Shown: positions 4,154 to 17,618 of the stretch, piece after piece
Layout: each line of letters opens with the position of its first letter
Position numbering within the stretch: the stretch's first letter is position 1
Assembly: GCF_023015985.1 (NCBI RefSeq)
Contig: NZ_JALKAO010000002.1
Span: 62,001-126,000, forward strand
Reading direction: 5' to 3'
DNA: 64,000 nt
From: Marivita sp. S6314
GTDB lineage: Bacteria; Pseudomonadota; Alphaproteobacteria; Rhodobacterales; Rhodobacteraceae
Position numbers and translations under genes: made by a program
The notes under the pieces: model-generated
What the model was told of the DNA's origin: nothing
Databases searched by the model: none
What the model saw: only the letters and a program-made list of their open reading frames with translations

Positions 4154-5659
4154 GTGTTGGGACCGTTTAAGACGTCGCGTAAATCCTTCTCAATGAGCAC
4201 TTTTTTGTTTCTGGCAATGTCGCTGCTTTGGGTGACGGTCGCCCATGCCCAAGATCGCCTTGCGCTTGTGATTGGCAATTCGAATTACAGTTCGGTGTCG
4301 CCGCTCGACAATCCGACGCGCGATGCGCAGCTTATCGCAACAACGCTTCAAAGCATTGATTTCGAAGTGACCCTGCTGATCGACGCCACACAGGAACAGA
4401 TGAACCGCGCCTTGTCGCAGTTCGGGCGGAGCCTGCGCGAGAAAGGCCCCGATACAACCGGCCTGTTCTATTACGCGGGCCACGGTGTTCAAAGTTTTGG
4501 CAGCAACTACCTGCTGCCGGTCGATGTGTCCTTGCGGGATGCGGCGGACCTTGACCTTGAAGGGGTCGAGGCGCAGTCGGTGTTGCGCCAGATGGCGTCT
4601 GCCCGCAACCGGACAAACTTTGTGATCCTGGATGCCTGTCGGAACAACCCCTTCGAGAATATCGCTGAATTCGATGATCCCGGCCTGGCCGAGATGAAAG
4701 CCCCAACCGGCACTTTCTTGGCCTATGCGACCGCTCCCGGCGCGGTGGCGCTTGATGGAACCGGACAAAACAGCCCGTTCACCACCGCGTTGGCGCAGGA
4801 AATGGTCAAGCCCGGTCTTGCCGTGGAGCAGGTGTTCAAACAGGTGCGGGTGTCGGTTCTGGACAAAACTGCAGGCCAGCAGACACCATGGGACACCTCG
4901 TCCCTGACCAGCAATTTCCAGTTCGTAAACGCGCCCGCAGAAGATCCCGAAGCGCTGGCCGCGCGCCAGCTTTGGGAATCGGTGCAGGCCACCCGTGACC
5001 CGGTCCAGATCATGTTGTTCCTGAGGGGCTACCCCGGGAGCGTGCACGCCAATGAGGCGCGCGAGTTGCTGGCGGCGGTGATCGAGGAAGAGCTGACATC
5101 GCCGGAACCGCAGGCCCCGGCCGCTGTGACCGCGGGCCCCTCTGCCGAGGAACAGCAACTTTTCGAGACCGCGCAATCAAACCCGACGGTCGCAGGCTAC
5201 CAAGCCTATCTGGACAGCTATCCCACCGGGACATTTGCCGAATTCGCCAAACAGGAAATCGCCGCGCTTTCAACAAACACAGGCGCCGATCCGGTAGGTG
5301 AAGGGGTCACCGAAGAGGAAGAAAACATCGAAGTGGCCGCCGTACAGGAACGTGCCGCAGCACCAAATGCCGTCACGTTTGGCGGACCGCTGCAAGCGCC
5401 CGGATCCCCGATTGACGGAGTCTCAATCGCCGACCTGTTTGATATGTCTCCACAATTTCCGCCCATCCCGGAACTGCCGGAGGAACTTTGGAAATCCGCG
5501 ACCTGCGCAAGCTGCCATGAATGGAACCGGGACCGCCTGTGCGAGCAATCCAACAACTACCTGACGCTGAGCGGGCAGAAGTCACTAGAAAAGCCGCATC
5601 CGTTCGACGGCGCGCTCAAGCGCAATCTGCGTCAGTGGGCGGCTGGGGGTTGTCAGTAA
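4154..5659 (+). CDS. Secreted caspase-like (peptidase C14) protein with C-terminal CxxCH motif
   Basis: I start it at GTG 4154, preceded by AGAGGAG at six-base spacing; this gives a good signal peptide (basic n-region, hydrophobic core, VAHAQ). ATG at 4193 is the alternative. Residues ~35-270 are a caspase/metacaspase p20-like fold beginning LALVIGNSNY, with the catalytic His in YAGHG (H110) and Cys in DACRNNPF (C162). A variable Ala/Glu-rich middle follows. The last ~60 residues carry CASCH (C451-C454-H455), a c-type heme-binding pattern, then a further Cys in RDRLCEQ and a terminal GGCQ. As an exported protein it could acquire heme c, but the same cysteines could bind zinc or form disulfides. 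Full-length for bacterial caspase-like proteins (501 aa). Role unknown. Confidence 0.85.
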   Translation: MLGPFKTSRKSFSMSTFLFLAMSLLWVTVAHAQDRLALVIGNSNYSSVSPLDNPTRDAQLIATTLQSIDFEVTLLIDATQEQMNRALSQFGRSLREKGPDTTGLFYYAGHGVQSFGSNYLLPVDVSLRDAADLDLEGVEAQSVLRQMASARNRTNFVILDACRNNPFENIAEFDDPGLAEMKAPTGTFLAYATAPGAVALDGTGQNSPFTTALAQEMVKPGLAVEQVFKQVRVSVLDKTAGQQTPWDTSSLTSNFQFVNAPAEDPEALAARQLWESVQATRDPVQIMLFLRGYPGSVHANEARELLAAVIEEELTSPEPQAPAAVTAGPSAEEQQLFETAQSNPTVAGYQAYLDSYPTGTFAEFAKQEIAALSTNTGADPVGEGVTEEEENIEVAAVQERAAAPNAVTFGGPLQAPGSPIDGVSIADLFDMSPQFPPIPELPEELWKSATCASCHEWNRDRLCEQSNNYLTLSGQKSLEKPHPFDGALKRNLRQWAAGGCQ

Positions 5660-5700
5660 TCTTTAGCTGATGTGACGCTTCGGGCACTTCGCAGGACAGG

Positions 5701-6438
5701 TCAGCACGGCTCGAGCAGACGACCTAAACCCGCTCGCCTCAGGGGCTGCCCCGCAAGCCTGACCAGGTGCCATGCCAGCACCTGATTGCTCGACAAAACC
5801 GGCTTGTTGATGTCCGCCTCTACGGCGCGCAGAACGCGCAAGGTCCTCAGGTTTGTGCAGGACAGGAAGACCGCGTCACAAGACGTCGTGCGCCCGATCT
5901 CAATCGCAGCCGCAGCGACCGAATCTTGCGCGATCCGCACAACCTTGGCCTCGACCGGTTCTTCAAAGCTCGAAAACGCGGGAACGGAAATGCCCGCGTC
6001 TACCAGAACCGCGAACAGCTTTTGCGATACCTCTTCGACATAAGGACTGATCACCGCCAGCCGCGTCACGCCAAGATGCCGACAGGCAGCAATCAGAGCG
6101 CTGACAGGCTCGGTCACATGGGGCGTCTCGACCCCCACTTTGATCAGCTCGGCAATCCTGTCCGGCCCAATTTCCGCACTGGCAGAGGTGCAACCGTACC
6201 CCACTGCCGAAAACGCGGCACCGCGCGGCAGAAGCTGTGCCGCCTCGGTCAAGCGCATTTCCATCGCACGGAGGCTGTTCGATGACACGACGCTGGACGA
6301 TGCCACCCGCGCCACAAGGTATTCCAGCTTGGGCGGCATCAAGACACGAAAGTCGGGTTCTAGCGTTTCATCTGATTGCAGAACAATCATACCAATCTGG
6401 GTGGGTCGATCCGCTTCGAATTCATAAGACAATCGCAT
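5701..6438 (-). CDS. Asp/Glu racemase-superfamily protein (maleate isomerase / arylmalonate decarboxylase / EutA-like)
   Basis: The 245-residue protein has the two-cysteine active-site pattern of this superfamily: C in GYGCTSAS (N-terminal half) and C in FLSCTNLRT (C-terminal half), each in a Thr/Ser-rich loop. These enzymes move a proton or isomerise a double bond with a Cys pair and no cofactor. The start ATG overlaps the stop of the upstream M24 gene by one base (TGATG), so it is the last gene of a three-gene operon. The arrangement recalls eutA in ectoine-utilisation clusters, but eutC and eutE partners and an ectoine transporter are not present here, so the substrate is open. Confidence 0.8.
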   Translation of the reverse strand: MRLSYEFEADRPTQIGMIVLQSDETLEPDFRVLMPPKLEYLVARVASSSVVSSNSLRAMEMRLTEAAQLLPRGAAFSAVGYGCTSASAEIGPDRIAELIKVGVETPHVTEPVSALIAACRHLGVTRLAVISPYVEEVSQKLFAVLVDAGISVPAFSSFEEPVEAKVVRIAQDSVAAAAIEIGRTTSCDAVFLSCTNLRTLRVLRAVEADINKPVLSSNQVLAWHLVRLAGQPLRRAGLGRLLEPC

Positions 6439-9114: not shown

Positions 9115-10755
9115 ATGCAAGCCAGTTTGGAAATCAATTTGTTCGGCACATGCTCGGTCCGGCTTAGCGGGGACGACCCTCTGGATGTGCGCGGCGCGAA
9201 ACACCGGGCGTTGATTTGCATGCTGGCCACCGCGCCGTTGGGGCGGCGGACCCGCACCTATCTGCAGAACACGCTGTGGGGGTATTCCGGATACGATTGC
9301 GGACATCAGAATTTGCGTCGTGCGCTGGCCGACCTGCGCAAACAGTTCGGTCGCGATTTCGATTTCTTCTTTCATACCACCAATTCCGACGTCGAACTGG
9401 ATCTCGAACATGTCCGGTTTGTCGGCGATGTGAACGCCGGCCTGTTTCTGGAAGATCTGAACGTCAAACAACGCGATTTCGAAGATTGGGTGGCCTCGAT
9501 CCGGGCAAATCCCGCGCAGATCGCAGCATTGCACCGCTCCCCTGCGGCAAGCGCTGTGCGCCGCCCGCGGCCCCGGGTTGTGGTTCTTCCCCTGAATTAT
9601 CTGGGGGATGATCCGGTCTTGCGTGCCTTGGGCGACTGGATTGGAGAACAGACCTGTCGCATCCTGTCGCGCTCAAAACTGTTGAGTGTGATCTCGCATC
9701 TGTCTGGCCGTGCGATGGTCCAGAACCCCATTGTCATTTCTGACGTGCGACAGACGCTGGATGTGGATTATCTGGCCAATGGCACGATCCGGCGGTCAGG
9801 CAAGGGTGTTGTCTGCGATATTGATTTTATCGCTGCGGCAACCGGTCAGGTGCTCTGGACCCGGGAGCTGTATCTTGAGGATGCGAACCATCTCGACAAA
9901 CTCAACGAGTCCCTCAATGCGATTGCCTTTTCCATCGCTCGGTCCATCGCCCATTCGGCAGTGGCCGCCGTGCAGGCGCAGCAAATGGATGATATCGAGG
10001 ATCACAACCTGACCATCGCCGGGGCGACCCTGATGCACCGGCGCACGTTGCGCGATTTCCTGAAGTCCCGCGATTATCTGATCGAGGCGCAAACGCGCAT
10101 GGACGGGATTGCCGAACCTTTGACGTGGCTTGGCAAATGGTACGTGCTGAACGTGATGAAAGGCTATTCGCTTGACCGTGCGCGCGACGCGCAGATGGCC
10201 GTTGAGTGTTGCGCCCGCGCGCTCGACATTGACCCGGAATCCAGCCTCGCCCTGACAATTGACGGGTTCGTTCACACGATCCTAGACCACAACGTCGAAA
10301 CGGCAGAGCGACGGTTTGATACGGCCCTTCAGATCAACCCCAATGAAAGCCTTGCCTGGCTGTTGAAAGGATCGCTCAAGGCATTTACCGATGACGGCGC
10401 GGCGGCAGTTGATGCCACCACCCGCGCGCGCCGGTTGTCGCCGATTGATCCGTTTGGGTACTACTATGACAGTCTCGCCAGCACCGCGCATCTGGCGGCC
10501 GAGAATTACCAGAACGCGCTGGATTACGCCGACAAGTCCCTGCGCACAAATGATCGCCACTTGTCGACACACCGCGCCCGCATCGTTGCTTTGCACCATT
10601 TGGGACGCGGCGAAGACGCGCGCAAAGCGGCGCAGATGTTGATGAAGAATTTCCCCACATTCAGCCTTGCGCAATATCGCAAGAGCCACCCGGCCACCAA
10701 TTACAAGCTTGGACAACAGGCCATTGCGGCCCTGTCTGCATCCGGGATCGACTAA
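9115..10755 (+). CDS. Transcriptional regulator: winged-helix (OmpR/BTAD-like) + TolB-like + TPR
   Basis: ATG 9115 follows AGGAAAGG at good spacing, giving 546 residues. Residues ~1-95 form an OmpR/SARP-type winged helix (LEINLFGTCSVRL..., VRGAKHRALICMLA, NLRRALADLRKQFG). Residues ~155-290 match the TolB-like module found in CadC/adenylate-cyclase-type regulators (VVVLPLNYLGDDPVLRALGD, GTIRRSGKGVVCDIDFI, TGQVLWTRELY). The rest is tetratricopeptide-like helices (for example ALDIDPESSLALTIDG, ALQINPNESLAWLLKG). No transmembrane segment is seen, so it is cytoplasmic. It lies 24 bp upstream of the GGI-repeat gene on the same strand and probably controls that cassette. Confidence 0.8.
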   Translation: MQASLEINLFGTCSVRLSGDDPLDVRGAKHRALICMLATAPLGRRTRTYLQNTLWGYSGYDCGHQNLRRALADLRKQFGRDFDFFFHTTNSDVELDLEHVRFVGDVNAGLFLEDLNVKQRDFEDWVASIRANPAQIAALHRSPAASAVRRPRPRVVVLPLNYLGDDPVLRALGDWIGEQTCRILSRSKLLSVISHLSGRAMVQNPIVISDVRQTLDVDYLANGTIRRSGKGVVCDIDFIAAATGQVLWTRELYLEDANHLDKLNESLNAIAFSIARSIAHSAVAAVQAQQMDDIEDHNLTIAGATLMHRRTLRDFLKSRDYLIEAQTRMDGIAEPLTWLGKWYVLNVMKGYSLDRARDAQMAVECCARALDIDPESSLALTIDGFVHTILDHNVETAERRFDTALQINPNESLAWLLKGSLKAFTDDGAAAVDATTRARRLSPIDPFGYYYDSLASTAHLAAENYQNALDYADKSLRTNDRHLSTHRARIVALHHLGRGEDARKAAQMLMKNFPTFSLAQYRKSHPATNYKLGQQAIAALSASGID

Positions 10756-10779
10756 CAGCTCAACTCAAAAGGACATTAT

Positions 10780-11895
10780 ATGGCACAGTACGGCGGGATC
10801 GGCGGCATTGGGGGAATTGGCGGCATCGGAGGGATCGGCGGTATTGGTGGCATCGGAGGCATAGGCGGGATAGGCGGGATCGGGGGTTTCACCGGTCTGG
10901 GCGGTTTCCTGGGCGCAGAAGACACCGGCGGATATGACGGCACCACAACCTACGGGCTGCAAACCACGGCGGACGGCCTGCAACACCTCAACAGCACGGG
11001 CCCGGCCCCGGCTGGGACGGCACTGCCCTTCAATGACACGTCGAACAACGACCGGTGGGCCAGTTGGGTCCGGGGCTCATTATACCTGTCAGAGTTCCTG
11101 ACCTGCATCGGCTATGAAGCGGTAAAAAGCGCACACGAGAAATCCGTGCGCCTGACGTTCGGGGGCGACGCGCTGGCCCATATCGTGCTGCCCGGCAATG
11201 ATCTGTTGGCCAGCCAATGCACCCTGGTCAGGAATTACGCCGACCTGCGCGCCGACCGCACCGCAGAAATCACGTCGCAGCTTGGCTTCCCAACCGAATA
11301 CTTCGCGATGATCCTCGGGATGCATCTGGGTCAGCACAAGAATACGTTCGAACTGATCACGGCGACGCAGGTGATGGCCGCGCATGTCGCAATGATCGTG
11401 AAACACGCCCTGGCCGTTCGCCGCCCGGACCAGATTGACGGACGCATCCTGCCGATGATCCCGACGCCGGGCCATGGCAGTTTCCCATCCGCCCATGCAA
11501 CCGAAGCCTACGCTGTTGCCACGCTGTTATCTGGGTTGGCCACCGAATGGGGCGGATTTAACGATCTGGACAACAGGCTGGCGATGTTGCGCGGTCTGGC
11601 GGAACGCATCACGGTCAACCGCACCGTTGCGGGCGTCCACTATCCGATTGACAGCTGGGCCGGGGCCAGCCTCGGCGTGGCGCTTGGCCAAGTGATCCTG
11701 AAAATGTGCGGTCACAGTGCCACGGTCGCGCAAGCCATCAAGTACGAGCCTGCCGACCACGATTTCAACGACTACGATCTGGTGCATTCCGCGTCGGACA
11801 AGGGCGTGCAGATCACCGGCACCGTGAACGTCCCGAAGACCGATCATTTCAGCTGGATCTGGAAAAAAGCGTTAAAAGACACGCAGAGCGTGTGA
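10780..11895 (+). CDS. PAP2 / vanadium-haloperoxidase-fold protein with N-terminal Gly-Gly-Ile repeats
   Basis: 371 residues. After MAQY come ten consecutive GGI triplets (residues 5-34), then a Gly/Phe/Leu stretch (GGFTGLGGF). The C-terminal half carries all three PAP2 signatures: K208-x6-R215-P216, P236-S-A-H239 in GSFPSAHATEAY, and R281-x5-H287-x3-D291 in NRTVAGVHYPID. The family holds acid phosphatases, lipid phosphatases and vanadium haloperoxidases. Absence of a hydrophobic multi-span pattern and of a signal peptide makes a soluble haloperoxidase- or phosphatase-like enzyme more likely than membrane PAP2. An AAAGGA sits before the ATG. The stop is followed two bases later by the S8 peptidase start, implying coupled translation. 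Function unknown. Confidence 0.8.
   Translation: MAQYGGIGGIGGIGGIGGIGGIGGIGGIGGIGGIGGFTGLGGFLGAEDTGGYDGTTTYGLQTTADGLQHLNSTGPAPAGTALPFNDTSNNDRWASWVRGSLYLSEFLTCIGYEAVKSAHEKSVRLTFGGDALAHIVLPGNDLLASQCTLVRNYADLRADRTAEITSQLGFPTEYFAMILGMHLGQHKNTFELITATQVMAAHVAMIVKHALAVRRPDQIDGRILPMIPTPGHGSFPSAHATEAYAVATLLSGLATEWGGFNDLDNRLAMLRGLAERITVNRTVAGVHYPIDSWAGASLGVALGQVILKMCGHSATVAQAIKYEPADHDFNDYDLVHSASDKGVQITGTVNVPKTDHFSWIWKKALKDTQSV
10792..10881 (+). repeat. In-frame 9-bp repeat x10 encoding (Gly-Gly-Ile)10
   Basis: Ten tandem 9-mers encode GGI, and an eleventh unit diverges to GGF. Synonymous positions vary between units (GGC/GGG/GGA/GGT for Gly and ATC/ATT/ATA for Ile), so the protein repeat is kept while the DNA repeat has drifted. 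Confidence 0.95.
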
Positions 11896-11897
11896 TC

Positions 11898-14021
11898 ATG
11901 GCACATGTTGAGCAACACTGCATTGACCGCTACGCTGGCCCCTACGAACGATGGGTGTTCACCAAGGAACTGGGCCGCCCCTACGCATTCCCACTGATCG
12001 CGCGGGGACCGTCCAAGCGCTACACCGCCTTGATGGAGGGCGGCGCGGTGTCCGCGCTGAACGGCGTGGTAAACGTGCGCGTGCCGCCCCTGTGGGAGCC
12101 CGACAAAACGACCCGACACATCACACCGTTTGTCTTTGAAGACGACGCACCGCAGAACGATACGGACGCACACGAAGACACCAGCCTTGCGCGCTGTCTG
12201 GGGTCGCTGCGCACGTGCATGGCAGCGTCACAAGACGCCGCATCCACCCTGCCCGCCCGGTTTCGCGTCAACTTTCCGGTGGTGGATGAAACCTGGGTCC
12301 AGAACTACGATCCGGACGGCACAAATACATCTTGGTCCAAACCGCTGACACAGCCCAAAGCAATCATTGCGGTCATTGATGACGGCCTCCCCTTTGCGCA
12401 TCGCGCCTTTCTTGACAGCCACGGACACAGCCGGATGAGCTATTGCTGGCTGCAATCGGGCATCGCGGCGGATACGGCAAACGTGCCGTTCGGACGTGAA
12501 TACACCAACGCTGAAATCGACCAGTTGCGCCGCACATATGGTCGGGACGAAACCGCGCTGTATCGCGCGGCGGCCGCCATCGATTCAGGCGTTTCCGAAC
12601 TGGGGGATCACTTGCGTCGGAGCGCCACCCACGGGTCGCACATCCTTGGCCTTGCAGCCGGGAATGACAGCCTGTTTCTGGATCACATTTTGGGTGATGA
12701 CATCCAGATCATTGCGGTGCAGTTGCCCAATACGATTGCCTGGGACACGTCCGGGTTTGGCAAAGAGATGTATATGCTGTCGGCCATGCACTACGTTTTT
12801 GAGCGTGCCAGCCGAATTGCCTGCGCGTTTGGCATCGGCGAACTCCCTCTGATCCTGAATTTCTCCTATGGCTGGAGCGCAGGCCGCCACGATGGCGCGT
12901 CCGAAATGGAGATCGCGGTGCGCGATTTGCTTGACGCGCGGCAGGCCATACAACCGGTGACAGAAATCGTCATGCCCACGGGCAATAACTTCGCATCTGA
13001 CATGCACGCCCGGATGGACGAAACATCGTTTCATGATCACAGTGCGCGGATCCATTGGCAGATCCAGCCGGATGACCAGACTTCGAGCTATCTGGAACTG
13101 TGGTTTCCTGCAGGGTTTGATCCGTCCGATTACCATCTGTCTCTGACCCCTCCGGCTGGCACGTCACTGGACCAACCGGTCGACATCGCCTTTGTGGCGG
13201 ATCCCGCTCTCGACGATGACGGCGATCCGCGCCGCTTTGTCGAGGTGATATCAGGCGGCAAGATCATCGGTCAGATGTCAGTCGACAAACACCGCCGCGA
13301 CCGATGGCGCGGCATGATCGCGGTGATCCCGACCGTCTACACCCGCCATCAGGACCGGCGGTTGGCATCCGGGGCCTGGACCGTCACTCTGTCGCGCTCA
13401 GAGAACGCGATGCCCCTGAGTGACGATCAGGATATCCTGATCTGGGTGCAGCGCGATGATGACCCAAGCGATCTGAAATCCAACGGACGGCAAAGCTACC
13501 TGGTCGAAATTCAGGACGCTGCCGTGCTCTTACCTAAACCGCCGCAATCACCGGTTCAGGACATCCCGGAAAATATTGCACAAGTCGCCGGATATGGCGC
13601 TCTGAATGCTGTGGCGTCCACGCCAAGCACAACCCGTGTGGCCGGCTACACCGCGCAAACCGGACGCATATCCCCCTATTCCGGGGCGGGCGGTCTGCGT
13701 ACACGGGTCGATGGCACGGTCGAGGTCTGGGGCGCGCAGGCAGATCTTACCGCAGTTTCGGATCACAGCCCCACTCTACCGGGAATTTCCTCAATCGGAG
13801 TGCTGTCGGGTGCCCGCGCCCGTCTGGTGGGCACCAGTTGCGCCGCACCCAGCGCCGCGCGGATCATGGTGTGCAATGCCGCCGCCGGTCGGGACGTGTT
13901 TGACGGGTTCGGTGATCCGCTGGACTTGTATCGCACGGAGTCTTCGTCTCCTTCGGTCGAATCCCAGCACAAGGCCCGTGTCGGTCATCGCACCGCGCCG
14001 CCGGTGTCCAAGGGCGGTTGA
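11898..14021 (+). CDS. S8 subtilisin-like serine peptidase, no signal peptide
   Basis: 707 residues from ATG 11898, two bases after the upstream stop. The catalytic triad is intact: Asp161 in IAVIDDGLPF, His245 in ATHGSHILGLAAG, Ser647 in GTSCAAPSAAR; the oxyanion Asn is N363 in MPTGNNF. About 400 residues separate His and Ser, much longer than in minimal subtilisins, with a beta-rich insert (residues ~380-560). I see no signal peptide or transmembrane helix, so the enzyme is cytoplasmic or exported by an unconventional route. The N-terminal ~140 residues could be a prodomain. Coupling to the GGI/PAP2 gene suggests that protein, or its repeat tail, as a partner or substrate; this is inference. 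Confidence 0.85.
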   Translation: MAHVEQHCIDRYAGPYERWVFTKELGRPYAFPLIARGPSKRYTALMEGGAVSALNGVVNVRVPPLWEPDKTTRHITPFVFEDDAPQNDTDAHEDTSLARCLGSLRTCMAASQDAASTLPARFRVNFPVVDETWVQNYDPDGTNTSWSKPLTQPKAIIAVIDDGLPFAHRAFLDSHGHSRMSYCWLQSGIAADTANVPFGREYTNAEIDQLRRTYGRDETALYRAAAAIDSGVSELGDHLRRSATHGSHILGLAAGNDSLFLDHILGDDIQIIAVQLPNTIAWDTSGFGKEMYMLSAMHYVFERASRIACAFGIGELPLILNFSYGWSAGRHDGASEMEIAVRDLLDARQAIQPVTEIVMPTGNNFASDMHARMDETSFHDHSARIHWQIQPDDQTSSYLELWFPAGFDPSDYHLSLTPPAGTSLDQPVDIAFVADPALDDDGDPRRFVEVISGGKIIGQMSVDKHRRDRWRGMIAVIPTVYTRHQDRRLASGAWTVTLSRSENAMPLSDDQDILIWVQRDDDPSDLKSNGRQSYLVEIQDAAVLLPKPPQSPVQDIPENIAQVAGYGALNAVASTPSTTRVAGYTAQTGRISPYSGAGGLRTRVDGTVEVWGAQADLTAVSDHSPTLPGISSIGVLSGARARLVGTSCAAPSAARIMVCNAAAGRDVFDGFGDPLDLYRTESSSPSVESQHKARVGHRTAPPVSKGG

Positions 14022-14061
14022 TGGGGACCGCCTTTGCGATAAGCAGCCCCGCTTTGAGATC

Positions 14062-14097
14062 GTCAGCGCGCTTGGATTTGCAGCCAAGCGCGCTGAC
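14062..14097. terminator. 14-bp perfect hairpin between convergent genes
   Basis: GTCAGCGCGCTTGG and its exact complement CCAAGCGCGCTGAC flank an 8-nt loop, placed between the convergent S8 peptidase and glycosyltransferase genes and ending four bases before the latter's stop. No T-run follows, but position and stem strength favour a bidirectional transcription barrier. Confidence 0.7.
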
Positions 14098-14100
14098 ATC

Positions 14101-16623
14101 TCAGCCAGCTTTTGCCTTCTTCAACGACTTCTCCAGGTGCCGACGAACAACATGACGATACCGGGAATCCTGCCCCAGATTTGCCAACAGGCCCGCGATT
14201 TCATCGAAACTGGTGTCGTCAAACTCCTGCTCTTTGAAGGCGCGCATCGCATGGCTGATCGCCCGCTCGTAGCCTGCGATCGTGTTTTCCGGCGCAAACA
14301 TGTCCTGCGCGATGGTTGCCGCCGCGGTGCGCGTCGCCCTTTGATCACAGTCGAACAATGTCCATGCCAGACCGTCGGCAAGATCATCGGTGTCAAACGC
14401 CCGGGCGGTGTATCCATTGACCTTGTGATGGATAAAACAAGCCAGACCGCTGGTTTTGAAACAGGTTACCGGCGTGCCGTTGCGAATGGCGTCAGACGCG
14501 ATCACGGACAGCGATTCCTGAAGCGACGGGACAAGACACACATCCGCCGCCTTGTAGATTTTCGCTTTCTGCTCTTCATCCGAAATGAACCCCAGGGGGA
14601 CGACCTTGAACGGAAGCGCCAAGTCCGACAGCGCGTTCTTGTCGACACTCCCAAGTATCGCGACACAGATATCCGCCCGGTCGGCATGTGACACCGCCAG
14701 TTTTGCCAGCGCCTGTGCGGCCAGAGAAAACCCTTTTCGCTTGTTTGACGCCTTGTGCACCGCAAGCAGAATGACCTTGGTCTGCGGGTCGATGCCAAGC
14801 TCTTCGCGGCACGTTGCCCGTGGCGGCACAGATGCAGTGGGGATCGGGTTGTTTACGGTAAAGATCGCATGGTCCCGCGTCAAAGGCGCATCCCGAAGCA
14901 TCTGTGAAATCCACTCCGATATGCCGCAAAACACGATGTCCGGACGTCGTCGGTAAACCATCTGGCGCAACATGTAAGAGGCCGAAACCTTTGAGTTTTC
15001 CCGCTTGTCGATCACAGACGGGCAATCTCCACATCCCAGCTTGAACTGGTCGCAGGTCAGCGAGGCCAGAAACTCTTTCTGATGGTCGGGGTATTCATCA
15101 ATTTGTGTGTCATCGAGCTTGAACAAACACCCGCCGGTATGCAGCCAATTGTCCCGCGCTATCCAGACGATCGGAAACTTCAGTTTCAGCAAGTCTGGAA
15201 TGGTCAGAATGCTTCGGTCGATTGCGCCCATCACGATGCAGTCGGGGCGATAGCGCGTGACATCCTCGACCACATTTTCGGAAATACTGGTGCTGCCCAG
15301 GGACACCCAGGTGGGCAGATGTACGCCCTTGATTGGCTGATCACTCGATTCCGTTCCAACAACCGGATAATCATCAAGCGAAAACGTCCGAATGTCATAC
15401 CCGCGTGATTTGAACAGGTCTCTGAGCCGGGAAGACGAGGCCGCCGCCCCGGCACCGCGTTTGACATTGAAACTGGTGCCGATCATGGCAATGCGCAGCG
15501 GTTTGGTTTGCCCGCTTGTTGGCAAGCTGATCACGTTCGACCGAGGAGCCCGATGCGCCCCTTCAACCAACCGCGCCTGTTGAAACGGGGTTTTTACCGG
15601 CTTGGGCTTGGGTTTGTTCGGCAAATACGTGTCGACCCAGTTAATCGGGTCAAACTGAGTTTCGCTCAACAGCACGGCGGCGTCTTTCAACTGTCGCCGC
15701 AGAATGTGATTTTCGTTCGCCAGCAACGTGGCACTGTGCACATTCGTCAGACTGTTCGCGGCGTCCGACTTTCCGTAGAAAAACGTGTCCGTGTCCGTGC
15801 AGATCGTACATTTGTCGGTTTCCAAAGCAATGTCACAGGCCTGACGATGATTGCTTTCAACAAAGAGAATATCGTCACGCCCGGCAAAGACGCTTGCCTT
15901 GAACGGCGCATGCGCTTTCAGGCGCCGCCGTTCTTCGGCTGACGGCAAGTCCAGCATGATCAGCTCTTTATAGGCGACCCCATGCGCGTCGAGCCATTCA
16001 ACCGTTGGCGCGCGGTATTTCTCAAGCCGGGACGTGACAATGGCGCTGATCTGTTTTTGCGGGATGAACAGCGGCTGCGCCGTGCGCAGAAACTCCAGAT
16101 AGCGCGGTCCGTCGTCATTGTCTTCGGCGGTGGGATCGACGCACAAGACGCCGTCCATATCAAAACACGCGCTTTCGGCGATGATGTGGTTCCGGTAATT
16201 CCACTGGAACACCCGAGGCTGCGCAATCCGGTCAAGCACCACATGCCTGGGGGCGTTCTTTGTCCGGTCCGGCAGGCCGAAAATGGCGCAGAAGGTGACA
16301 TCGAAATCCTGCTCCAACGTGCCCAACCGCCGCTGCACGCGGCGAAACTCTGCGCCGGTATTGACCGAGTCGTCGACAATCAGCACCTTTTGGATTTCTG
16401 CCAGTGACCGATCCGACTGCGCCCTGCGGCCCTTTCGCCGCGATTGGGTGAAGAGAAACGAATCCAGATCTAGAAAGGTGACGTTCTTGATCGTGGCGAT
16501 CATGGTGGCTGGCACTATGCCCGATTTCGGGATGCCCACCACGTAGTCGACATCCGGAAGGTGATGAATGTTCTCCGAAATGATCCGGGACATATCGGCA
16601 TAGGAGCGATAACTCAGCGTCAT
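14101..16623 (-). CDS. Trifunctional fusion: phosphoribosyltransferase-like + HAD-like + GT4 glycosyltransferase
   Basis: 840 residues with three recognisable modules. Residues ~1-130 are a type I phosphoribosyltransferase fold with the PRPP loop KVLIVDDSVNTGAEF (about 79-93). Residues ~150-290 start with the HAD nucleophile motif FDMDGVLC (Asp155, Asp157). Residues ~380-825 resemble GT-B family 4 glycosyltransferases: an N-terminal Rossmann half with WLHTGGCLF and CGDCPS cysteines, and a C-terminal half with LLAVHKASNKRKGF, FISDEEQKAKIYKAADVCLVPSLQES and the E-x7-E-like region ESLSVIASDAIRNGTPV. A proline/lysine linker separates HAD and GT. Probably cytoplasmic, building a surface glycan or modifying a nucleotide-linked sugar. 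The FkbM gene 47 bp upstream is likely co-transcribed. Confidence 0.8.
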   Translation of the reverse strand: MTLSYRSYADMSRIISENIHHLPDVDYVVGIPKSGIVPATMIATIKNVTFLDLDSFLFTQSRRKGRRAQSDRSLAEIQKVLIVDDSVNTGAEFRRVQRRLGTLEQDFDVTFCAIFGLPDRTKNAPRHVVLDRIAQPRVFQWNYRNHIIAESACFDMDGVLCVDPTAEDNDDGPRYLEFLRTAQPLFIPQKQISAIVTSRLEKYRAPTVEWLDAHGVAYKELIMLDLPSAEERRRLKAHAPFKASVFAGRDDILFVESNHRQACDIALETDKCTICTDTDTFFYGKSDAANSLTNVHSATLLANENHILRRQLKDAAVLLSETQFDPINWVDTYLPNKPKPKPVKTPFQQARLVEGAHRAPRSNVISLPTSGQTKPLRIAMIGTSFNVKRGAGAAASSSRLRDLFKSRGYDIRTFSLDDYPVVGTESSDQPIKGVHLPTWVSLGSTSISENVVEDVTRYRPDCIVMGAIDRSILTIPDLLKLKFPIVWIARDNWLHTGGCLFKLDDTQIDEYPDHQKEFLASLTCDQFKLGCGDCPSVIDKRENSKVSASYMLRQMVYRRRPDIVFCGISEWISQMLRDAPLTRDHAIFTVNNPIPTASVPPRATCREELGIDPQTKVILLAVHKASNKRKGFSLAAQALAKLAVSHADRADICVAILGSVDKNALSDLALPFKVVPLGFISDEEQKAKIYKAADVCLVPSLQESLSVIASDAIRNGTPVTCFKTSGLACFIHHKVNGYTARAFDTDDLADGLAWTLFDCDQRATRTAAATIAQDMFAPENTIAGYERAISHAMRAFKEQEFDDTSFDEIAGLLANLGQDSRYRHVVRRHLEKSLKKAKAG

Positions 16624-16670: not shown

Positions 16671-17618
16671 TCAGTGCGTTTTTGGCAAAGCGATCACGGC
16701 ATGTTCTTTGAACAGGTTCGGTGCGACTTTGCGGACCTGAAATTCATAACCGGGCAGCGTTTCGATCATGAATGGAAGCGTGTCGCGAAATTCGTCCGGG
16801 GTATGGTAGAACGAAACGATCAGCACCGGTTGGTGCGCGCGGATTGTCCGGAGCGCTCCGCGCAAGACCGGCACCGCATCGCCTTCAACGTCAAGCTTGA
16901 TCAGGCCGATATTGGCCTGCGGATGCGCCTGCATCACCGCATCGAGTGTCGCGGTTTCCACAACGATTTTCGGCTCGAACGCCAACTCTGCTTTTGCCCG
17001 TGATGTGCCTACGCCCGCAGATTGCATGGTGGCCAGCCCCTCGTGATCTGACAGGGCAATGTTTGCATCTAGGATTGCGCCCGAGTCCCTCTCGGCCTGC
17101 GTGTTGACGCGCAGCATCTGGTAATTGACCGGATCCGGCTCAAAGCAAAAAACGCATGACGGAGAGTACGTCTTTAGAAAGAACTGCGCGGATGCGCCGT
17201 CGTAACTGCCTGCATCCACAATATCCGTGTGACGCAGTTTGCGCGTCTGTGCATCGCTCAGGTATCGCAGTCCGTAGTGGCTGAGCGTCTCGTCACTCTC
17301 TTGTACAGACGAAGTGCCCGTACCGTCCGTCTGGGCGAGATCGTATCCAAACTCATGCAGGGCGTTGCGGGTGTCTTCCGGCAAAAGCGCCATTGCTGTT
17401 TGCGTTTCACATTGCAGAAACGGGCTCAAATTCGGGTCGGACACGTATCGGGACAGATCCACCGAAAGCTTGAGAAGCGCGCGCGACTGGTCGTCTAGCC
17501 GCGATAAGATCCGTTCGGTCAAAAGCGACGCAAACCCCTGACGCGCCTCTGCGTCCTGGGCCCAAACGGCGCGGTACGCCTGGCTTAACCCGATCACCTG
17601 ATCAAGGGACATGAGCAT
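16671..17618 (-). CDS. FkbM-family methyltransferase
   Basis: 315 residues from ATG 17618, chosen because GGAAGG lies six bases before it; TTG 17621 and ATG 17612 are alternatives. The C-terminal ~200 residues show the FkbM/SAM-dependent Rossmann pattern: DIVDAGSYDGASAQFF (SAM loop), VFCFEPDPVNYQML (acidic residue after beta2), and IGLIKLDVEGDAVPVLRGA (post-II motif typical of FkbM). The N-terminal ~110 residues are helical and unrecognised. FkbM enzymes commonly O-methylate sugars in surface polysaccharides, which fits the downstream glycosyltransferase fusion. Confidence 0.85.
   Translation of the reverse strand: MLMSLDQVIGLSQAYRAVWAQDAEARQGFASLLTERILSRLDDQSRALLKLSVDLSRYVSDPNLSPFLQCETQTAMALLPEDTRNALHEFGYDLAQTDGTGTSSVQESDETLSHYGLRYLSDAQTRKLRHTDIVDAGSYDGASAQFFLKTYSPSCVFCFEPDPVNYQMLRVNTQAERDSGAILDANIALSDHEGLATMQSAGVGTSRAKAELAFEPKIVVETATLDAVMQAHPQANIGLIKLDVEGDAVPVLRGALRTIRAHQPVLIVSFYHTPDEFRDTLPFMIETLPGYEFQVRKVAPNLFKEHAVIALPKTH

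Follow-up and report, generated by a model that had tools for sequence, protein, structure and literature searches.

We describe a three-gene cassette in a stretch of 64,000 nucleotides from Marivita sp. S6314 (contig NZ_JALKAO010000002.1, positions 62,001 to 126,000 of the forward strand), referred to below as the window. The genes, designated A, B and C, encode a regulator with tetratricopeptide repeats (TPRs), a PAP2-type protein that begins with a tandem peptide repeat (the head), and an S8 subtilase. The features, numbered from the first letter of the window, are listed below.

9115–10755, + strand: gene A, regulator; open reading frame (ORF) of 546 residues, TPR_2 match at E 5.5e-7, N-terminal winged helix by homology only.
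10015–10752, + strand: C-terminal part of A (residues 301–546), TPRs; basis, phylogenetic generalized least squares (PGLS, see below) and sequence matches to designed and natural TPRs in PDB.
10780–11895, + strand: gene B, soluble-looking PAP2/class A acid phosphatase-like protein with repeat head; ORF of 371 residues, Pfam PAP2 at E 4e-11.
10792–10881, + strand: tandem head (GGI)10, in 9-nt units with varied synonymous codons; read from the sequence.
11898–14021, + strand: gene C, S8 subtilase with a Csp-like fold, a long insert and the triad D161/H245/S647; ORF of 707 residues, phmmer and Foldseek.
14062–14097, no strand assigned: hairpin between C and the convergent gene; by folding.

The three genes are co-oriented, with gaps of 24 bp between A and B and 2 bp between B and C. 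An earlier note on this DNA had proposed this layout, and the re-derived coordinates of A, B and C agree with it. The (GGI)10 head that it placed on the PAP2 protein was likewise recovered (MAQY, then (GGI)10, ahead of the PAP2 match), as was the intact triad of the subtilase: D161, H245 and S647, together with the oxyanion N363, are invariant in 53/53 aligned C proteins, and the nearest solved relatives are the Csp S8 proteases. Its description of the regulator stands in part. The TPRs are recognized in A; a winged helix is found in homologues alone (Trans_reg_C, E 9e-15, in the homologue from locus L248; loci are numbered with the prefix L) and is unmatched in window A; and the "TolB-like" assignment is not established, with no match in window A and a single sub-threshold match in the homologue from L326 (E 0.0098). 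The downstream hairpin is confirmed, with a 14-bp stem (14062–14075/14084–14097) and a fold of −40.1 kcal/mol for 14045–14110 (z −7.5 versus shuffles); it is a possible shared terminator of C and the convergent gene. No signal peptide was seen on the window enzymes by inspection by eye alone.

The cassette is widespread. C was detected in 36 of 195 relatives, and all three genes are present in 32 of the 36 regions fetched around these matches; of the exceptions, L046 (with B and C) and L066 (with C) are cut by contig ends. From a contig scan with B, the best 80 of 376 loci were kept. All three genes occur together in 77 of these 80, and L136, L147 and L154 are without one gene at a contig end. 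The 80 loci belong mainly to alpha- and betaproteobacteria (Marivita, Roseibium, Bradyrhizobium, Bosea, Microvirga, Kiloniella, Hydrogenophaga, Polaromonas and others), and include one record each titled gammaproteobacterial and Oceanobacillus. The genome samples were draws of 195, 292 and 398 genomes, and genes in the fetched loci were called by simple custom scripts. Removal of near-identical B genes from all fetched loci left 177 non-redundant loci, of which 175 contain A, 162 a C-type S8 gene and 160 both. The earlier note had set co-occurrence of the enzyme pair across genomes as a check, and homologues without conserved adjacency as a refutation; these counts bear out the former and contradict the latter. 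The 160 complete loci span 5.0 kb at the median and 5.7 kb at most, and show seven arrangements, among them A-B-C on one strand (99 loci) and A divergent and upstream of B (51 loci). The remaining 17 loci comprise 14 with another peptidase gene and three (L136, L046 and L154) cut by contig ends.

Eight PAP2 relatives with weak similarity to B have neither a head nor A or C within their 3.4-kb loci, and several of them begin in a signal-peptide-like manner. Phage cargo was considered and rejected: C is unmatched in the phage collection, and 35 viral-contig matches are partial PAP2 matches. Searches of one library of open-licence papers, with matches judged from listings, yielded no description of the cassette, in line with the earlier note, which knew of no system of such make-up; within that library, the cassette is apparently undescribed. 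One copy, on a plasmid of Phaeobacter inhibens M647 (L256), has A annotated as two open frames and a shorter hypothetical protein encoded after B, which would suit a decaying cassette or errors in the sequence.

At least three tandem units of 2–5 residues are found at the start of B in 174 of the 177 loci, with 96 different units once rotations are merged. The queries used to collect the loci (B or C) were derived from headed members, and this share therefore applies to these loci and not to PAP2 proteins generally. The unit length is three residues in 146 loci, four in 19, two in seven and five in two; the median copy number is 9, and the head spans ∼12–57 residues. Other units seen include NR, SK, NK, DAR, GGA and VEA. 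The head of L143 enters a masked stretch and was counted by its visible units, and this locus was excluded from array statistics and later tests. The exceptions are L317 (two HAK units only), L046 (cut by the contig end) and L102, where a GGF-like stretch precedes B in a different frame, perhaps through a sequencing error or decay of the copy. Among 20 further divergent loci, 19 have a repeat head (e.g. NRG, LHKG, HGGT), the exception being L356. Irregular GL-rich heads occur in L353, L354, L355 and L358, which represent a longer B subfamily (∼480 residues) with GL/GLGLGN-rich heads, an A-type neighbour and no recognized peptidase.

Where two cassettes share a genome, their units differ in 21/21 pairs, as chance alone would give, with ∼0.4 matches expected. 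Eight Phaeobacter plasmids (among 21 Phaeobacter records matched) all carry the unit NSF, in six copies each in six P. inhibens plasmids, five in P. piscinae and seven in P. gallaeciensis. A degenerate (GGI)3 DNA pattern has no match in the Marivita genome outside the B head, and the idea of a partner tagged with its own (GGI)3 was discarded on this ground. A chance origin of (GGI)10 was rejected, as was a collagen-like helix, many of the 96 units being without Gly at every third residue.

The heads are repetitive as protein and tend away from repetition as DNA. The ten GGI units of the window have nine different 9-nt spellings. Across 172 arrays, protein-level imperfections affect 20 of 1645 units, where arrays were bounded by a perfect run plus interruptions and imperfect end units escape the count. 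Adjacent codons of residues with at least 4-fold degeneracy differ in 2507 of 3199 cases. The base identity of adjacent units in the 172 arrays is 73.6%, compared to 77.2% after shuffling the unit order (0/2000 shuffles as low), and identical DNA neighbours number 61 against 96 expected. In the longer arrays (159), direct neighbours resemble each other little (lag 1, z −15) and units at lags 2, 3 and 5 resemble each other strongly (z 6.2, 3.4 and 3.5), a pattern that duplication of blocks of several units would produce. The heads have a G+C content at third codon positions of 0.567, versus 0.721 in the core. The near-perfect protein units, with codons of adjacent units more different than after shuffling, indicate selection at the level of the protein repeat. 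A small number of arrays appear to be of recent origin, namely L136, in which seven DNA units are identical, L114, L137 and L134. New units probably arise by DNA amplification, after which the protein unit would be kept while the codons diverge. Alignment of codon patterns of the heads between sister loci gave p<0.05 for the nearest pair alone.

The AlphaFold2 model of B has a mean predicted local distance difference test score (pLDDT) of 88, falling under 50 for residues 1–38; its Foldseek match is to class A acid phosphatases (7f17, E 7.6e-6). The signature of these enzymes (K-x6-RP, S-[GA]-H, R-x5-H-x3-D) is preserved: K208, R215, P216, H239, R281, H287 and D291 are present in 52/52 proteins and S237 in 51/52. 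Pfam gave no match to C up to E 0.1. Its model (mean pLDDT 92) is structurally most similar to CspB (4i0w, Foldseek E 1.7e-22, template modelling score 0.66 by target length), with 13–17% identity to the Csp structures matched. Given the invariant triad and oxyanion Asn of C and the B signature, both enzymes look catalytically competent.

The peptidase family is exchangeable in the cassette. Fourteen loci (L326–L339) have a divergent B and are without C, yet have another peptidase gene nearby. In six of them (L330, L331, L333, L336, L337 and L339) an S8 gene of type c3 lies directly 3′ of B. Five contain an S8 gene of type c4, divergent from A in L326–L329 and directly 3′ of B in L338. Two (L334 and L335) have a peptidase A4 gene directly 3′ of B, and L332, the weakest case, has a trypsin-like gene ∼1 kb from A. 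Among the 20 later divergent loci, type c3 is present in 11 and type c4 in two. The A4 (eqolisin) family is known for secreted acid enzymes; the L334 and L335 copies, located in a bacterial cassette with no signal peptide visible, are unusual for it.

The output domain of A is also exchangeable, being either a winged helix or a nucleotidyl cyclase. A sequence matches to designed and natural TPR structures in PDB are accompanied by TPR models at E≤0.01 in 14 of 16 A homologues scanned. Seven of the 16 (L327, L329, L330, L333, L334, L335 and L338) have a class III cyclase at the N-terminus. Trans_reg_C in L248 and BTAD in L332 score above the Pfam cut-off, Trans_reg_C in L331 and L339 scores below it, and the N-terminal domain is unrecognized by Pfam in the other five. 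As the TPR protein and the headed PAP2 protein are the most constant parts of the cassette, the TPR domain is suspected to be the reader of the head.

To relate the head to the proteins, the chemistry of the unit was regressed on every alignment column with phylogenetic covariance (PGLS, 157 loci); the TPR register and domain borders were assigned by us from sequence. Once phylogeny is taken into account, the strongest association with unit chemistry lies in the TPR domain of A. Tests with p<0.001 amount to 3.6% in A-TPR, compared to 0.4% in the winged helix-turn-helix part of A, 0.9% in its linker/TolB region and 1.1% in the B core. The corresponding values for C are 1.0% in the protease domain, 0.4% in the insert, 0.2% in the N-terminal domain and 1.25% in the tail, which is short (80 tests). 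With three-residue units only, A-TPR reaches 3.7% and the next region 1.4%. Twelve simulated traits gave 0.05–0.23% at p<0.001, and none of eight control traits exceeded 0.83% in A-TPR. When single traits are considered, A-TPR is highest in four of six.

Within the domain, the signal is unevenly distributed. Helix A of a TPR lines the inner face of TPR superhelices. In TPR2–5, with the register set from sequence, helix A has a mean −log10 p of 0.97 versus 0.56 for helix B together with the loops (p 5.8e-6), and presumed groove positions carry more signal than the remaining TPR positions (p 2.3e-3). Swapping units within 47 sister pairs lowers the A-TPR value from 3.40% to a mean of 2.47% (P 0.003, 400 swaps), while the C protease domain is not above this null (P 0.27). 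The region just after the head (B residues 45–110) shows 2.8% in the full set; in the same-strand subset it falls to 0.8%, versus 1.5–2.5% in the TPR parts, and its signal in the full set could come from linkage or clade structure. Associations of unit length in C are probably clade effects.

We tentatively read the cassette as a regulatory system in which the TPR groove of A would bind the head of B, the peptidase would control this contact, and occupancy of the groove would switch the output of A; this is quite possible, though short of probable. B would present an unstructured ligand of identical 2–5-residue units ahead of a class A acid phosphatase-like domain, and the TPR superhelix would bind it, perhaps with one unit per TPR. 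The neighbouring peptidase may cut the head off B or into unit oligomers, thereby setting how far the groove is filled. The output affected would be DNA binding here and cyclic nucleotide synthesis in some relatives. Occasional new units would come from tandem DNA amplification, with codons diverging later and the amino-acid unit kept. Binding, cleavage, direction of regulation, the substrate of B and unit replacement are the parts that we infer. Contact between head and TPRs is the best-supported candidate mechanism. The earlier note had suggested that the protease clips its partner's head, and such clipping would fit, since a peptidase is kept across changes of family.

A number of observations weigh against this regulatory reading. 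C is present with no B found in L052 (where the contig ends 1.6 kb past C) and in L064. In L356, A is accompanied by a B homologue that has no head (about 4836–5855, − strand), perhaps a degraded copy or a variant lacking the head, and the only trace of C is a short fragment resembling it. A peptidase is unrecognized in L344, L353, L354, L355 and L358, and L340 has a sub-threshold papain match alone. The closely related L116 (GGI) and L113 (GGT) differ in unit at 11% B-core divergence. In the association tests, the A-TPR excess mostly survives sister swaps, and the mean −log10 p of the B core is likewise above its swap null (P 0.015). For the Gly count, the C protease domain (3.3%) is above A-TPR (2.9%), and for the N/Q/S/T count the C insert (2.6%) is level with A-TPR (2.5%). 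One control trait, the length of C, gave 7.5% in the C protease domain, so clade effects are able to pass the phylogenetic correction. The 52 divergent-A loci show 0.5–1.3% in the TPR parts and 0.99% in the C protease domain; helix A still exceeds helix B there (p 4.9e-3). The net charge of the groove is not complementary to that of the unit (p 0.73). Between sister loci that differ in unit, neither A nor C has diverged further; whole-protein co-divergence with unit change was looked for and not found. The strength given to this reading, and to its superhelical-matching form below, is lowered on account of the two traits (of six) that favour regions other than A-TPR and of the missing head in L356.

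Among known systems, the cassette would work most like a TPR-peptide receptor. Excerpts of two articles (PMC9765709, PMC11343458) describe the RRNPPA family (Rap, NprR, PlcR, PrgX, Rgg, ComR, AimR) as cytoplasmic TPR receptors with variable short peptides encoded nearby, some from multi-pheromone propeptides, and with maturation by proteases. The likeness lies in a TPR receptor with regulatory output, a variable short peptide encoded nearby and the link to a peptidase, and A has the C-terminal TPR domain expected of the family. The N-terminus of RRNPPA proteins is an Xre-type helix-turn-helix, or is lacking such a domain in Rap. A homologues, however, match Trans_reg_C, BTAD or Guanylate_cyc, and none an Xre-type helix-turn-helix. 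In the loci examined, the repeat is fused to a PAP2 protein instead of forming a small exported propeptide; moreover, the present system is in Proteobacteria and the peptidase is part of the cassette. With two tested RRNPPA features absent, the cassette is not to be filed in that family. B shares the fold and signature residues of class A acid phosphatases/PAP2 proteins (7f17, PhoC, PhoN), but differs in its repeat head and fixed neighbours. C resembles the Csp germination proteases (CspB, 4i0w) in fold, at the low identity given above, and the window host is presumably not a spore former, unlike the setting of Csp.

It is unlikely, though conceivable, that the head is a multi-copy peptide signal, cut by the peptidase into identical oligopeptides that the TPRs of A would sense, either as a pheromone specific to the lineage or as an internal messenger, much as in RRNPPA. 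Units that are identical within a gene and different between lineages would suit such a role, as would a peptidase gene in most loci beside a TPR protein with a DNA-binding or cyclase output; tandem pheromone propeptides that are processed by proteases and read by TPRs have a precedent in Bacillota, according to the same excerpts (PMC11343458, PMC9765709). However, no export signal was seen by eye, the peptide is joined to a conserved enzyme, no transporter was noticed as a constant neighbour (no systematic search was made), and the unit NSF is common to eight plasmids of three Phaeobacter species. Somewhat less likely, the head may serve the protease alone, as a tag for degradation or tethering, with C recognizing the unit to remove or activate B and A merely controlling expression. 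Retention of a peptidase through a change of family agrees with a tag, unit length and Gly content are associated with certain columns of C, and in the loci with A divergent the protease domain shows as much association as the TPR parts do. In the full set, however, the protease domain stays at ∼1%, not above the sister-swap null, and at least two unrelated peptidase folds (S8 and A4) would each need to track one kind of tag.

That the head drives self-association of B, as stickers and spacers in a filament or condensate where regularity alone matters, seems improbable. The head is disordered in the model and the unit arbitrary yet regular, but NR, SK, NK, DAR, GGA and VEA have no obvious common self-association chemistry, unit identity seems stricter than condensates require, and the A-TPR association would be left unexplained. 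A neutral or phase-variable minisatellite, made by slippage under weak selection, is very improbable. The near-identical DNA units of L136, L114, L137 and L134, the copy numbers of 5, 6 or 7 across three Phaeobacter species, and the block duplication suggested by lags 2, 3 and 5 all point towards it. Against these stand the near-perfect protein units with widely varied codons (adjacent units 0.736 versus 0.772 shuffled, 0/2000 as low) and a head in 174/177 loci. DNA-identical tandem units, the mark of slippage contingency loci, are not the rule here, with the same four loci as exceptions, and phase variation by slippage was rejected because codons vary between units. The earlier note's alternative, a stress- or defence-type effector pair under a dedicated regulator, may still apply; PADLOC defence models gave no match to A, B or C up to E 0.1.

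A more specific form of the regulatory reading, which we regard as doubtful, is a natural receptor by superhelical matching. TPR modules would read one unit each, the code would be arbitrary and self-consistent, rewritten by tandem DNA amplification with the TPR groove changing to follow, and the co-encoded, exchangeable peptidase would be the switch. An excerpt of PMC10115654 describes designed repeat proteins whose binding of tandem tripeptides relies on superhelical matching. They share with the cassette a repeat protein paired with a repeat peptide, tripeptide units and a one-to-one idea; as far as that excerpt goes, they differ in being engineered, whereas binding in the cassette is inferred from association.

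Beyond the hairpin, the window contains a gene at 14101–16623 (− strand) for an 840-residue protein with a sub-threshold phosphoribosyltransferase-like N-terminus and a GT4 glycosyltransferase, which also matches Pfam "GT4-conflict". It is adjoined by an FkbM methyltransferase gene at 16671–17618.

The unit of the head is arbitrary between lineages and identical within a gene while its DNA is varied, which poses a sharp puzzle as to what selection sees. If the regulatory reading is true, it adds a circuit of a phosphatase-like enzyme, a peptidase and a TPR regulator or cyclase to many alphaproteobacteria, some of them in culture. If the TPRs read the repeat, the cassette would hold a natural, rewritable repeat-on-repeat code, useful for protein design and for the study of ligand-receptor co-change. 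Superhelical matching, if it applies, would make the cassette a class of peptide signalling or sensing in Proteobacteria with a rewritable code.

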